DNA of 40,198 nucleotides from Eubacteriales bacterium (GTDB lineage: Bacteria > Bacillota > Clostridia > Christensenellales > Aristaeellaceae), in assembly GCA_028701335.1 (NCBI GenBank), contig JAQVQY010000008.1, forward strand, positions 1 to 40,198, in the 5' to 3' direction. Below, in pieces: positions 6,877 to 26,551 of the stretch; position 1 is the first letter of the stretch, and every line of letters begins with the position of its first letter. Under the pieces are notes generated by a model that was given only the letters and a program-made list of their open reading frames with translations, had not been told where the DNA came from and did not search any database. Both the position numbers and the translations under genes were made by a program.

Positions 6877-7413
6877 TTATTGTGTTTCCTGTGCCATGGC
6901 GGCCTGAAGCCGCTCTTTGGGGTCAAGCCGCGTGAGGGTGTCCAGCCGGAGTTCGGCGGCGGCGCGCCGGGCCAGCGCCTGACAAAAGGCCGTTGTGCCG
7001 GGGACAAAGGCGGCCATCATCTCCTCCGCCTCCCGCGTCTCCCGGCAGGCCAGGTCCCACTGGGTGCTGTACCATTGGTCCGCCCGGGCCCTGAGCTTCA
7101 GCGCCCTCCCTCTTTGGGCGGCCCTTAAGTCCGGGGGCGGAACCGGCCTGCCTTCCGCCAGCAGCCGCGCCGCCTGGAGCGGGGTGATGCCCCGGAGGGC
7201 TGACAACAGTGCCACCGCGTCCCCGCCCCGGCCGCAGCCAAAGCAGTGCCAACGGCCCTTTTCGTCAAACATGATCGAGGGCGTCTTTTCCCCGTGGAGC
7301 GGGCAGTTGGCCCAGTGGCGGCTGCCCCTTGGTTTCAGCTCAAGCCCCTCCCCCCGCGCCGCTTCCATGGCCGGGATCCCCCGGCAGCGCTCAAACACCG
7401 ACAGCTCCTTCAA
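6877..7413 (-). CDS. CHC2-type zinc-finger (DnaG-like) primase fragment/protein
   Basis: CPLHGEKTPSIMFDEKGRWHCFGCGRGGDAVALLSALRGITPLQAARLLA; TTG start at 7413 preceded by AAAGGAGGTGATC. Confidence 0.85.
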   Translation of the reverse strand: MKELSVFERCRGIPAMEAARGEGLELKPRGSRHWANCPLHGEKTPSIMFDEKGRWHCFGCGRGGDAVALLSALRGITPLQAARLLAEGRPVPPPDLRAAQRGRALKLRARADQWYSTQWDLACRETREAEEMMAAFVPGTTAFCQALARRAAAELRLDTLTRLDPKERLQAAMAQETQ

Positions 7414-7418
7414 AAAAA

Positions 7419-7442
7419 GATCACCTCCTTTCGGTGGTGACC
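7419..7442 (-). promoter_or_regulatory. Hairpin enclosing the primase Shine-Dalgarno (GGTCACC-accgaaagga-GGTGATC)
   Basis: 7-bp stem (one GU) with AAGGAG straddling loop and stem. Confidence 0.5.
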
Positions 7443-7459
7443 GTACCGCATGAGGCAAC

Positions 7460-7507
7460 TGACATGTAATGACATGTTGACTGACATCAACTGACATGGG
7501 GTGACAT
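7460..7507 (-). repeat. Five-copy ATGTCA (TGACAT on +) iteron-like array upstream of the primase gene
   Basis: TGACAT at 7460, 7470, 7482, 7492 and 7502 (spacings 10, 12, 10, 10). Confidence 0.85.
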
Positions 7508-7515
7508 GGTGGCAA

Positions 7516-7543
7516 GATGAAAAGCCCACCGCGATGGTGGGCT
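7516..7543 (-). terminator. Minus-strand intrinsic terminator upstream of the primase promoter region
   Basis: AGCCCACC-atcgc-GGTGGGCT then TTTTC on the minus strand. Confidence 0.7.
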
Positions 7544-7743
7544 CTGCTGTGAGACGTGACTCCAATATGGAAAAGTGATATCATCCCAAACCATGGCGTC
7601 CCCACTGGCAACAATCAGTTCAGCGATAAAAAACTCATCCGCCTATGGCGCGTACTCCGACTCCTTCGCCAACGCGGCGCATTCATCACCGGTTAAGCCA
7701 ATGGATACCTTATTCGTTAGTTTGGTCCTTCATAGTACCAGCA

Positions 7744-8049
7744 TCAACGGCTTCTGTAATCCGCGAAATTGGCCAGCCATTCCGGAACGCGATTACCATA
7801 GCCCCGCTGTTTCAAAAAGCTTGCGAGGGCGTTAAAGGTGGTCAATATCTTCCAACGGGGATGCGGATCGCGGGAATCCCCAATATGGCTGCCTACAAAA
7901 ACTCCCTCCATCAGGTATGACGCTCTGTTGTCCCTCAGAAACAGATAAAGGAGGTGGTCGTCAGCGATGAACGGGTAGTGGTGATTTTTCTCCTCAGGCA
8001 ACTTCGTCACAATCTTGTCCCAATCATACTCCATCCAGTCAATTTCCAT
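7744..8049 (-). CDS. Hypothetical protein (small, accessory region)
   Basis: MEIDWMEYDWDKIVTKLPEEKNHHYPF...; RBS aaggaggga upstream of the ATG at 8049. Confidence 0.55.
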   Translation of the reverse strand: MEIDWMEYDWDKIVTKLPEEKNHHYPFIADDHLLYLFLRDNRASYLMEGVFVGSHIGDSRDPHPRWKILTTFNALASFLKQRGYGNRVPEWLANFADYRSR

Positions 8050-8202
8050 AAAATCCCTCCTTATTTCGTTTGAAATGCCTGAATGAAAAACAGGACATGT
8101 TGGCGGGCAGATCATCGATCCGCCTTTTATTGGCAGCATTTTAAGTGGTCATTCGTTATTTGCCGATTAATGTGCTCATCAATTGACAACTATTTGATGC
8201 GT

Positions 8203-8568
8203 TTACTCCCCGGACAGTTCGATTCCCTCTCCCCGCTCCATCTTTTCAATCAATGTCTTCAGGCCCTTGAGAGGTTTGGTCAGCGCTTTAACATTTACGT
8301 CTGTCCGGTATTCTTCCAGCGCGTCATAGACTTCCCGGAGGTCATCCACGGAGATTTCACCCTCGTCATCATACAGGGCATCCTCCAGGGGCTGGTAGAT
8401 GCCATAGAAGGAGTTGGCAGGGTGGCACTTCATCGCGGCGTTCAGATTGCTGGAGCGGAAAGGCACGGTGCCCATGAACATCCCATCGGTGATGGCGTTG
8501 AGCTGGGCGATGACTGATCGTAGGGTCATTTTTTTACCTGCTTTCAATAAATATTCTAAGTCCGCCAT
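8203..8568 (-). CDS. Hypothetical protein
   Basis: ORF MADLEYLLKAGKKMTLRSVIAQLNA...; may instead start at the Met at 8529. Confidence 0.5.
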   Translation of the reverse strand: MADLEYLLKAGKKMTLRSVIAQLNAITDGMFMGTVPFRSSNLNAAMKCHPANSFYGIYQPLEDALYDDEGEISVDDLREVYDALEEYRTDVNVKALTKPLKGLKTLIEKMERGEGIELSGE

Positions 8569-8578
8569 ACAAGAATTA

Positions 8579-8911
8579 TTATATATTATAGGTTTTGATA
8601 TTCGACTCAATGAACTCTATTTCAGCGTTACTTAATTTATATTTCAAATATAATTCCTTGTCAGTCCAGCTCTTTGAAAAATCTTGAATAGGTACGAACT
8701 CGTATGCCGATGGAGAAAGCATTTGTGTGTAACTCTTTATCGCCACCAGCATCCTGAAAATCTTACTAATACAATAAGTAACCAATTTTTTCGCTTCTAC
8801 TTCCATCATCTGAGCGCACAGCCATTCCAACATGTTGAGCATCGGGTCTTCCATCCCCATAAACCGGAATAGCATACTTTGGAAATTCGTGGTATCCTTG
8901 CCTTGAGCCAT
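8579..8911 (-). pseudogene. Chimeric ORF: N-terminus of an IS256-family transposase joined to the C-terminal tail of a restriction-modification methylase
   Basis: MAQGKDTTNFQSMLFRFMGMEDPMLNMLEWLCAQMMEVEA resembles IS256-family N-termini; LVTYCISKIFRMLVAIKSYTQ...YEFVPIQDFSKSWTDKELYLKYKLSNAEIEFIESNIK resembles Eco57I-like/N6-adenine methylase C-termini; intact RBS AAGGAGGAGAACC. Confidence 0.6.
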
Positions 8912-9100
8912 TGGTTCTCCTCCTTGTGAATGTCTTAGCAACATCAATTGTAGCGGAGTCCCAGTGGCTTGCCCATATCCTTTCATCCTGGGCTAAGTTG
9001 CGAACATTAGTGTACTCTATCGGTCATTCAGGTGGTCATTGGCAATGGGTCTGGCTGCCTGTAAGCGGGGAAACGCATTTTTCAGCAGGCCCTATATGAA

Positions 9101-9135
9101 AAAGGCGGGTTCGGCTTTTCGCAAAACCCGCCTTT
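9101..9135. terminator. Strong hairpin, probable terminator between the accessory zone and the sugar operon
   Basis: AAAGGCGGGTT-cggcttttcgcaa-AACCCGCCTTT. Confidence 0.7.
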
Positions 9136-21890: not shown

Positions 21891-23777
21891 CTATTCAATC
21901 ACCTGGATAAAGTCACACAGCCATTCCATCTCCAGGATGTCGTAGGGCTTCAGGTCGTTGTTTTCCCAGACGCGCAGGATGCCGTCCTGGTCCCTGATGG
22001 GGCCGTGGAAGGGGTTGAAGTGGCCGCGGCCGATAGCGTCCCGGAGGTATTTCAGCAGATTTTCCCCCTGGGTGTTCAGGTCCTTTCCCAACAGGAAGCG
22101 CAGGACGCCGGCGCCGAGACCCCACCAGAGGCCGGCCACCGAGGGGTCGCCCTGGTCGATGATGCGCAGGATGTCCAGGCTGCCATTCAGGTAACTGCGG
22201 ACAATCTCCGTGTAGTACTGGCCCCAGTCCCACTGGGGGGCCGCCAGGTACTGCACCAGCTCGCCCCGCTCATTGAGCCGGCCTACGAGGCTGAAGACAT
22301 GCTCCGGCATTTCCACCCGCATAGCCCCCTTCACCAGGGGGGTATAGGCTGCGTCCGCCCCTAAAGACGCCGCAGCCTGAAGGCCCTGGATGCTGGTCTC
22401 AGGCTCATCGGGCAAAACACCCCGCCACACCAGGAGCACCTGGGCCTCGGGCCTTACGGACCTGACCCCCAGGCCAAAGGCGTTGATGTCCGCCGTGTGG
22501 CGGCGGTAGGTGATACGCGGGGTGATGTAGGCGATGCGCCCCGTGCGGGTGGCCATGCCGGCCGCCGCCCCGCAGAGGAACATGGGCTCATAATAGCGGC
22601 CATAGTAGGTGCTCACCCGGCGGTCCTGGCGCGCGCGGGAGTAAACCAGGGTGAGGCAGTCCGGGTGCTCCAGGGCAAAGCGCAGCGCCGGCAGGGTGAG
22701 GGTGGAGGCGGTGATGAGCAAGAGCTCAGCCCCTGATGCCTCTTCATTGAGCCTGTCATAGACGTTCTCGGGCGTGAGATTGTCCACAAAGCTGGACATG
22801 ACCTGTTCCCCAAAGGCTTCCTGCATCACCCGGCGGCCCGCCTCGTGGGCGCCCAGCCAGTTGTCCTCCTCACGGCCCGTGGCATAGGCGAACACCACCC
22901 GCGCGCTCCTGCGCTGGCTGAAAAGGCGGCTGATCAGCCCCGGGGCGGCCGGCTCCGCGGGGCTTAATACCAGCTCCGGCTCCGCCTCCGGCTGGCTCAG
23001 GAGCTCCATCTGCGGGGCCAGGAGGTCGATGCGCTCTTTCACCTGGCTGATGACCACGCCCTCCGGCAGGCCGTAAATCCTTAAATATTCCAAAAAGGCG
23101 TCCCCCAGGGGCAGGGGGCGCCGGGCCTGGCCGTAAGCCGCCTCAAACTGGAGGTACATGGCGTTGAAGTTGACATCCACCGGCAGCCCCCGGCGGATGA
23201 GCCGGGCCTCAATGCGGCTGAGCTGCTCATATTTTTGTTTGCTGGAAAGCTGAATGTTCTTAAACAGGCCCTTCTTGTCATAGCTCAGGTAGGCGTAGTA
23301 CACGGCGGTGTCCGGGTCGCCCTCGTCCAGCTGTGGCACCACCCGGGTGATCTCCGCCTGCACGGTGGGCGCGTCAAAGTACTTGAGGATGCTGACCCGC
23401 TTGTTGCCCTCCACCACATAGTAGCGCCAGAGGTATTCGTAGACCTGGATGGGATCCCGCAGGCCTTCTGACATATGGATGGCGCAGAGGCTGATCCACT
23501 TGGAGGCGAACTCGCTGAGCGGCGGGTGCAGGGGCATGAAATTGTCCGCGAAGGAGCGGGCGCGGGAGGTCGTGTAGGTGCCCGCCACCCGGCTTAGGGA
23601 TATCTCCCGCTGGGGCTGCTTCATGTACGCCACGGGATGGGTATCCCCGGTGATATCGTCCAGCGCCGCCAGATAGCCCCGCTGGCCCCGGGCGATCCGG
23701 GCGCTCAACTCTCTCTGCCCCAGGCGATTGGCCCGGTCATAATTAAACCGGGCTTGCTGGTTAAACCTGGCTTCCAT
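21891..23777 (-). CDS. Cytoplasmic protein with N-terminal ParB-like (VVEGNKRVSILKY) region and C-terminal BMP/PnrA-like ligand-binding domain
   Basis: No signal peptide; YYVVEGNKRVSILKYFDA resembles the ParB box II; C-terminal VFAYATGREEDNWLGAHEAGRRV ... YYEPMFLCGAAAGMATRTGRIAYITP resembles BMP-family nucleoside-binding proteins; ATG at 23777 with RBS GGGGGAGGG. Confidence 0.75.
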   Translation of the reverse strand: MEARFNQQARFNYDRANRLGQRELSARIARGQRGYLAALDDITGDTHPVAYMKQPQREISLSRVAGTYTTSRARSFADNFMPLHPPLSEFASKWISLCAIHMSEGLRDPIQVYEYLWRYYVVEGNKRVSILKYFDAPTVQAEITRVVPQLDEGDPDTAVYYAYLSYDKKGLFKNIQLSSKQKYEQLSRIEARLIRRGLPVDVNFNAMYLQFEAAYGQARRPLPLGDAFLEYLRIYGLPEGVVISQVKERIDLLAPQMELLSQPEAEPELVLSPAEPAAPGLISRLFSQRRSARVVFAYATGREEDNWLGAHEAGRRVMQEAFGEQVMSSFVDNLTPENVYDRLNEEASGAELLLITASTLTLPALRFALEHPDCLTLVYSRARQDRRVSTYYGRYYEPMFLCGAAAGMATRTGRIAYITPRITYRRHTADINAFGLGVRSVRPEAQVLLVWRGVLPDEPETSIQGLQAAASLGADAAYTPLVKGAMRVEMPEHVFSLVGRLNERGELVQYLAAPQWDWGQYYTEIVRSYLNGSLDILRIIDQGDPSVAGLWWGLGAGVLRFLLGKDLNTQGENLLKYLRDAIGRGHFNPFHGPIRDQDGILRVWENNDLKPYDILEMEWLCDFIQVIE

Positions 23778-24444
23778 AGGCCCTCCCCCAGTCATAGCGG
23801 GTCTTGATGTAACTCAGGCGCTTCCTGCGCCCCGGCTTTTCAAACTGAAGGTCCAGCACCTGATAGCCAAAGGCGTTGATAATCACGGTGTTGTCGTATT
23901 GGATCTCCCGGGGAGCCGCCGGGCCATAGTTGGTATGAACATGGCCATGGAAATGGTATTTGGGGCCAAACAAATCAATCAGCGCCCGGTAGGCCTTAAA
24001 ACCCTGGTGAAAGGCGCCGCTTATGTCCCCCAGGCCCCTGGCCGGGACGTGGGTCACCAGCACATCAAAGCCGCCGTGGAAACTGATCTCAGGCAGGCGG
24101 CGGGTAATCTGGCGCGCCGCGTCCCGCTCGGAATAGTGGAAGGGCTTGGGGCTGGAAGCCAGCGCCCCGCCAAAGCCGATGAAGCGGATGCCCCTGAAGA
24201 CCTGCATCCTTTCCTCCAGGTTATCACAACCCTCCGGCGGGTGCTGGAGGAAGTGGCCGTCATGGTTGCCGTGGACATAGAAAAGCGGGGCCGCCACCAT
24301 GGTGGTGAGAAAGGAGAGGTAACTGGCCTTCAGATCCCCGCAGGCGATGATTACGTCCACGCCGCGGAAGGCCTGGCGGTCAAAAAAATCCCAGATAAAG
24401 CGGCTTTCCTCATCCGCCACCACCAGCGCCCGCAGCTTAACCAT
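23761..24444 (-). CDS. Metallophosphoesterase (calcineurin-like)
   Basis: CGDLKASYL, VHGNHDG, VTHVPARG, HFHGHVHTNYG. Confidence 0.88.
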   Translation of the reverse strand: MVKLRALVVADEESRFIWDFFDRQAFRGVDVIIACGDLKASYLSFLTTMVAAPLFYVHGNHDGHFLQHPPEGCDNLEERMQVFRGIRFIGFGGALASSPKPFHYSERDAARQITRRLPEISFHGGFDVLVTHVPARGLGDISGAFHQGFKAYRALIDLFGPKYHFHGHVHTNYGPAAPREIQYDNTVIINAFGYQVLDLQFEKPGRRKRLSYIKTRYDWGRAYGSQV

Positions 24445-26068: not shown

Positions 26069-26551
26069 TCAGCTGTCTATCCAGCCCCGCCACCGAAACG
26101 GTGGGTGGCTGCCAGTGACCAGTCGCTTTAAAGTGGCGGTCTCCTCCGGCGGCTGCATGTCCCGGTATAAAAGATACAGCGCCCGTAGCGCCGAGAGGCT
26201 GGTGGACCGCATGGAATACGTGCGGATCATGGCCTGGTTTTGGGCGTTCCTGGGCAGCGCCTCAAACAGGAGGTAGAGAAGCTCGTCGGCCATCAAGGTA
26301 AAATCGTCCATCCTCAGGCGCACCATTTGGCCATTGTCCATTTCAAGGGACAGCTTGCCCGCCGTCTCCTCCCGCACCTGCATGAACAGCAGGTTGTCCA
26401 GCTGAAACGCCAGGTCCTTCAGGCCGCCTTTTTCCGGGCGGAAGCCCATCAGGCGAAGCGCCAGGGCCTCCATCAGGGCGGCGTTGCGGGCGACAAACGC
26501 GCCCCCCAGCCAGGGGCGCAGGATTTGCGCTACCCGACGGACAGCGGCCAT
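26069..26551 (-). CDS. Hypothetical protein upstream of soj
   Basis: 160-aa ORF co-directional with soj and 16 nt away; no family recognised. Confidence 0.6.

Follow-up and report, generated by a model that had tools for sequence, protein, structure and literature searches.

A predicted cytoplasmic fusion of a ParB/sulfiredoxin-fold domain to a BMP-family domain, and its metallophosphoesterase partner, in Clostridia

The fusion gene and the predicted location of its product

The stretch of DNA analysed here (the window, 40,198 nucleotides of contig JAQVQY010000008.1 from a bacterium of the Eubacteriales) carries a gene whose product is predicted to join a ParB/sulfiredoxin-fold domain to a ligand-binding domain of the BMP family (Table 1). 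The gene for a metallophosphoesterase (MPE) lies upstream and shares 17 nucleotides with it (23761-23777), which is, judging from the sequence, the layout of translationally coupled genes. Immediately upstream of parA, which is found with parB in the same neighbourhood, a 160-residue protein without Pfam or NCBIfam match is encoded (26069-26551, minus strand), and it recurs at this place in seven loci including the window.

Table 1. Coordinates of the fusion gene, its parts and its partner gene in the window
Feature	Position	Strand	Basis
Fusion gene, 628 residues: ParB/sulfiredoxin-fold domain, helical region and BMP (AtzT-like) domain; predicted cytoplasmic	21891..23777	-	Start and Shine-Dalgarno sequence, models, absent signal peptide
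Shine-Dalgarno sequence of the fusion gene, GGGGGAGGG	23781..23789	-	Purine-rich sequence kept in relatives
ParB/sulfiredoxin-fold core, residues 57-150, best conserved portion of the protein	23328..23609	-	Model, Foldseek, profile, conservation
C-motif-like loop GLRDP, residues 105-109, G105 invariant	23451..23465	-	Alignments, conservation
P-motif (Box II) EGNKRVS, residues 123-129, aligned to GERR of ParB and GCHR of sulfiredoxin	23391..23411	-	Profile, hhalign, conservation
Helical stretch of residues 151-262, corresponding in position to the ParB HTH; first part aligns with MPE-linked short proteins	22992..23327	-	Model, hhalign
Linker, residues 263-290, low confidence, poorly conserved	22908..22991	-	Model, conservation
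BMP/AtzT-like domain for ligand binding, residues 291-628, with an invariant stacking aromatic (W307)	21894..22907	-	Sequence match, fold search, profile, conservation
Partner metallophosphoesterase, 227 residues, all metal-site positions conserved but the histidine of DxH, which is E in the window	23761..24444	-	Family search, alignment, neighbour maps

The fusion frame comprises 628 codons and a stop codon at 21891-21893, and its longest ATG-initiated version starts at 23795 and codes for 634 residues. The initial annotation had placed the start at 23777, and rightly so, since GGGGGAGGG lies directly upstream and the same ATG, located 12 residues ahead of the aligned Tyr13, is kept in close relatives together with a purine-rich Shine-Dalgarno sequence.

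The protein contains YYVVEGNKRVSILKYFDA at residues 119-136 as well as the BMP segment, and it is single copy in the window's own genome. The same full-length architecture, ParB-like followed by BMP, is conserved across dozens of genomes; the fusion is therefore neither a chance product nor an assembly chimera, and an erroneous joining of two unrelated genes can be dismissed. In one genome (G255, locus L064), the two halves are encoded by two overlapping frames beside the MPE gene (7168-8022 and 7959-9107), which may correspond to a gene that is truly split, to a pseudogene or to a frameshift introduced by sequencing. A 2280-residue frame in another genome (G079, locus L055) was considered as a bigger fusion and dropped, its upstream 1600 residues looking like a spurious antisense-type frame.

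With regard to location, none of the 77 full-length fusions carries a signal peptide or a lipobox, and neither a strongly hydrophobic N-terminus nor a 19-residue stretch with a mean hydropathy above 1.9 was detected among them. In contrast, intact BMP-only proteins from related genomes, taken as a control, all have a strongly hydrophobic leader (8 out of 8), with a lipobox in 7 of the 8. This difference makes it very probable that the fusion protein resides in the cytoplasm, as had been proposed for it from the lack of a signal peptide, and export from an alternative start is ruled out by the conserved start and the leaderless N-termini of the 77 relatives. Genes for ABC transporter ATPases or permeases are not recurrent directly beside the fusion gene in the 77 loci, where MPE is the sole constant neighbour. 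The annotation of such proteins is hereby corrected, a RefSeq-derived record having labelled a cytoplasmic fusion of this type as an ABC transporter substrate-binding protein. A different contig of the window's genome harbours a further gene of the Bmp family, which extends up to the end of that contig.

The two halves of the fusion protein

Pfam and NCBIfam assign no family to the N-terminal half of the window protein, and the ParB_N model (PF02195) gives a weak match in 2 of 37 N-terminal domains. The AlphaFold model of this half has a pLDDT of 90.5, and its top Foldseek matches are Noc, ParB and KorB, with a best E-value of 2.8e-5 and a probability of 1.00 to Noc and ParB. The long overlays on these three proteins fit poorly (TM about 0.2-0.3, rmsd 15-20 Å), whereas that on sulfiredoxin (6ky4) is compact, with 90 columns, an rmsd of 2.6 Å and a TMt of 0.67. 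As only the latter fits, what is shared with these proteins does not extend to the HTH and is limited to the ParB/sulfiredoxin core, at about residues 57-150. The evidence from sequence is weaker. When the profile of the N-terminal domain was searched against the PDB, the best match was again 6ky4, at an E-value of 0.055 only, with EGNKR opposite SGCHR. Furthermore, hhalign aligned this domain with the family of the neighbouring canonical ParB weakly (E 0.002, probability 13.7, compared with E 0.086 and probability 0.7 for an unrelated control), with box I and box II both in register.

The Box II P motif GxxR is present in the fusion as G124-N-K-R127, and G105, E114, E123, G124, K126, R127, S129 and R145 are invariant in all 77 relatives, N125 being kept in 76 of them. 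The window protein has no match to HTH_ParB, ParB_C or TIGR00180, while the neighbouring ParB carries both domains, and Box III (ENxQR) is absent after the fold core in every row of alignment A2. On the strength of the model and the alignments, the N-terminal half has the ParB/sulfiredoxin fold, but neither the HTH nor the third phosphate motif of ParB. The initial annotation had recognised both the ParB-like fold and GNKR as the counterpart of Box II, and these assignments stand. A sulfiredoxin function is ruled out, as the position of the catalytic Cys is occupied by Asn.

The BMP half matches the solved AtzT structure at E 4e-23, and its profile (alignment A3) reaches 1.3e-60 with AtzT and 1.1e-59 with the Brucella basic membrane lipoprotein, PnrA-type proteins and the comK activator (2hqb) following at 1e-5 to 1e-10. 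The score of the window protein against the Pfam BMP model (PF02608) is 23.1, slightly below the cut-off of 24.1. Sequence, fold and profile matches all indicate that the C-terminal half is a complete BMP domain, as first annotated, and place it in the branch of AtzT and the Brucella lipoprotein.

In AtzT, guanine is bound by stacking between Tyr45 and Trp194 and by contacts with Ser97, Glu165, Asn218 and Asn220 (PMC6834077). We mapped these residues from our own alignments, in which the chain index plus 5 gives the numbering of that paper. Tyr45 corresponds to W307, which is invariant in the 77 fusions, and Ser97 to Ser or Thr in 67 of them, and to Ala in the window. The contacts made by Glu165, Asn218, Asn220 and Trp194 are not conserved across the 77 sequences, position 426, equivalent to Glu165, being G, R, D or E according to subgroup. 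A planar ligand is plausible on these grounds; a guanine specificity like that of AtzT is unsupported, and the specific response to nucleosides envisaged in the initial annotation finds no support either, since the polar base-contacting residues are not kept.

The metallophosphoesterase partner and the wider family

Mapping of neighbouring genes by tblastn and profile maps revealed that an MPE of one family adjoins the fusion in 70 of the 77 loci, either downstream on the same strand (35), downstream and convergent (19), or upstream on the same strand (16), with a wider gap in two of them (about 1.3 kb in L045 and about 0.5 kb in L139). Among the seven other loci, two lie at contig ends (L006, L164), one is unexplained (L058), and in one genome (G461) the MPE gene is on another contig, so that the pair is kept unlinked. 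The last three (L047, L137, L140) belong to genomes having a second, MPE-linked copy of the fusion, and it follows that some copies may act alone. These two-paralogue genomes are G264 (L047, L051), G545 (L117, L137) and G593 (L116, L140), each with one copy beside an MPE; in G545 and G593, the copies that have no MPE neighbour group in a long-branched clade of their own.

Each gene arrangement is largely confined to one clade, and at least three changes are needed on the tree, indicating that fusion and MPE stayed together through rearrangements. Where they are convergent, the two genes cannot form a single operon. In 391 Clostridia genomes, of which roughly 10% encode the fusion, both genes were found in 38, the fusion only in one, MPE only in three and neither in 349 (39 fusions and 41 MPEs overall). 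The corresponding Fisher p of about 4e-48 overstates independence, the genomes being related, and the repeated rearrangements together with the unlinked pair of G461 are a stronger argument for the pairing than this value. In the three MPE-only genomes (G501, G373, G524), no fusion is present within the flanks examined.

The nearest solved relatives of the partner are lariat-debranching enzymes and MPPED2, at E-values of 1e-5 to 6e-5 only. When compared with the motifs of calcineurin-like metallophosphoesterases (D-x-H, GD, GNHD/E, H and GHxH), its invariant residues are D11, G36-D37, G59-N60-H61, H132, G167-H168 and H170. Across the family (alignment A6), the His of the DxH motif is replaced, by Glu in most rows and by Val, Pro or Ala elsewhere, the remaining metal ligands being retained.

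Outside Clostridia, the full fusion accompanied by MPE also occurs in Collinsella (Actinomycetota), under the record name 'BMP family ABC transporter substrate-binding protein'. Among more remote Bacillota, the profile of the N-terminal domain retrieves BMP-less proteins of about 320 residues, which are homologous to it (hhalign probability 98.8, E 1e-16), and in the set of loci examined all 13 of them (L143-L155) are immediately preceded by an MPE gene of the same family. Their tails are either of the 4Fe-4S ferredoxin type (e.g., L149, L150, L154, L155) or cysteine-rich (e.g., L143, L151), and might possibly represent, from their sequence, a redox-sensing version of the same system. DUF4032 (PF13224) matches L148 with 28.5 bits and L143 with 16.4 bits, for a cut-off of 23.8, and does not match the fusion protein. 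Since the BMP-less proteins share the same MPE, the constant unit is MPE plus the ParB-like domain, the C-terminal part varying by lineage. Three further loci (L156, L157, L141) encode proteins, short or otherwise different, that match the ParB-like domain more weakly and have no MPE within the flanks examined. On the whole, the initial annotation was right about the domains and their location, and it had overlooked both the MPE partner and the BMP-less relatives.

Possible functions and comparison with known systems

We propose, with a probability of roughly 0.4, that the fusion and MPE constitute a two-gene cytoplasmic metabolite-sensing system, in which the BMP sensor would act through the ParB-like switch on MPE. 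A small metabolite, probably purine-like or otherwise planar, would bind in the BMP cleft and close the domain, and this closure would be relayed to the ParB-like domain, which may bind, and perhaps hydrolyse, an NTP. The nucleotide state would then set the activity or the target of MPE, a putative hydrolase of a phosphomonoester or phosphodiester, e.g., a nucleotide messenger, serving as the output of the fusion or as an activity opposed to it; control might also run the other way, with the product of MPE as the signal. In other Bacillota, the pair of MPE and ParB-like protein would be driven by a 4Fe-4S or cysteine-rich C-terminus, this part of the protein being an exchangeable input. The proposal draws its support from the folds of the two halves, the leaderless N-termini, the invariant P-motif residues E123, G124, K126 and R127, the pairing with MPE and the BMP-less relatives. 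A recent survey has, moreover, established the ParB-CTPase fold as a versatile NTP switch to which other domains are fused, although NTP binding was observed there for only 11 of 28 purified proteins (PMC12704722). This last figure weighs against the proposal, as do the unrecognisable Box III, the unconserved base-contacting residues of AtzT and the three paralogous fusions that have no MPE beside them.

Alternatively, the two genes could form a kinase/phosphatase pair, the ParB/sulfiredoxin domain being a small-molecule kinase comparable to SerK or SbnI, with BMP capturing the substrate and MPE reversing the reaction. SerK, SbnI and sulfiredoxin, all members of the fold with phosphoryl-transfer activity, are among the Foldseek matches, SerK itself was once annotated as ParB (PMC5120207), one of the short homologues gives a weak match to the SerK model (E 6.5e-4), and the acidic residues E89, E114 and E123 are strictly conserved. 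However, the alignment matched no catalytic residue, the Cys of sulfiredoxin included, and the short homologues end in Fe-S or cysteine-rich tails instead of a substrate-binding domain, and we regard this possibility, which we rank second, as unlikely. A cytosolic purine buffer or scavenger, that is, a transport protein deprived of its signal peptide and feeding salvage with MPE as a nucleotidase, would account for the AtzT-type fold and the MPE partner, but leaves unexplained the invariant NTP-type motif and the MPE-linked ParB-like proteins lacking BMP; nor was a salvage gene noticed as a recurrent neighbour in related loci, and the chances of this reading appear slim.

The resemblance to ParB itself invites two further readings. 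A ligand-responsive transcriptional or nucleoid regulator, with the ParB-like part on DNA and BMP as the effector domain, would fit the best structural neighbours (ParB, Noc, KorB), the presence of the BMP-family comK activator among the BMP matches and the position of the gene after parAB in the window's group. It is improbable, given that the good overlay is limited to the fold core, that no HTH or other DNA-binding family was found in the fusion, and that parAB lies near 9 of the 77 loci only, namely those of the window and eight close relatives. Chromosome segregation had been named at the outset as a phenotype to check, and an accessory factor of ParABS would agree with the place of the gene after parA-parB in these nine loci; it is by far the least credible of the alternatives, as 68 of the 77 loci have no ParB nearby and neither the HTH nor the ParB_C domain is present. 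The parAB neighbourhood as an argument for segregation is ruled out by the same count.

Returning to the metabolite-sensing reading, we suggest, more tentatively, that these proteins belong to a widespread and still unnamed module of bacterial signalling. In it, a nucleotide switch of the ParB fold with exchangeable sensors, for a purine-like metabolite or for redox state through a 4Fe-4S centre, would govern a dedicated phosphoesterase, e.g., for the control of a nucleotide messenger. The ParB fold was recently shown to be a general NTP-binding module with many fused domains, few of which have a defined partner or input; as the partner enzyme is conserved here and the sensor domain can be recognised, input, switch and output are directly testable.

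Concerning known systems, AtzT and the Brucella lipoprotein (6pi5, 3s99) resemble the BMP half over the whole domain and at the positions of Tyr45 and, mostly, Ser97, but they differ from the fusion, which has no export signal, is joined to an NTP-type domain and does not conserve four of the AtzT residues. The comK activator of Bacillus halodurans has the BMP fold and is annotated as a regulator, but has no ParB fusion. SerK, SbnI and sulfiredoxin share the fold and a GxxR-type motif, whereas the kinase residues are not identified in the fusion. DUF4032 proteins are related to the MPE-linked short homologues and not to the fusion. A literature search on DUF4032 and on the BMP family with ParB or MPE, covering few subscription papers, yielded nothing relevant to the pairing. 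The closest likeness is to the ParB-CTPase fold fusions surveyed in PNAS in 2025 (PMC12704722), which have in common with it the ParB/sulfiredoxin core, a GxxR Box II, a lineage-specific fused domain and, as many orphan ParB-like proteins do, a divergent Box III; that survey relied on PF02195 as query, a model that hardly detects the present family, and its main text mentions neither BMP, DUF4032 nor phosphoesterases and describes no conserved MPE partner. Fusions of the ParB fold are thus already known, and the pairing of this one with MPE offers a sharper functional handle than most.
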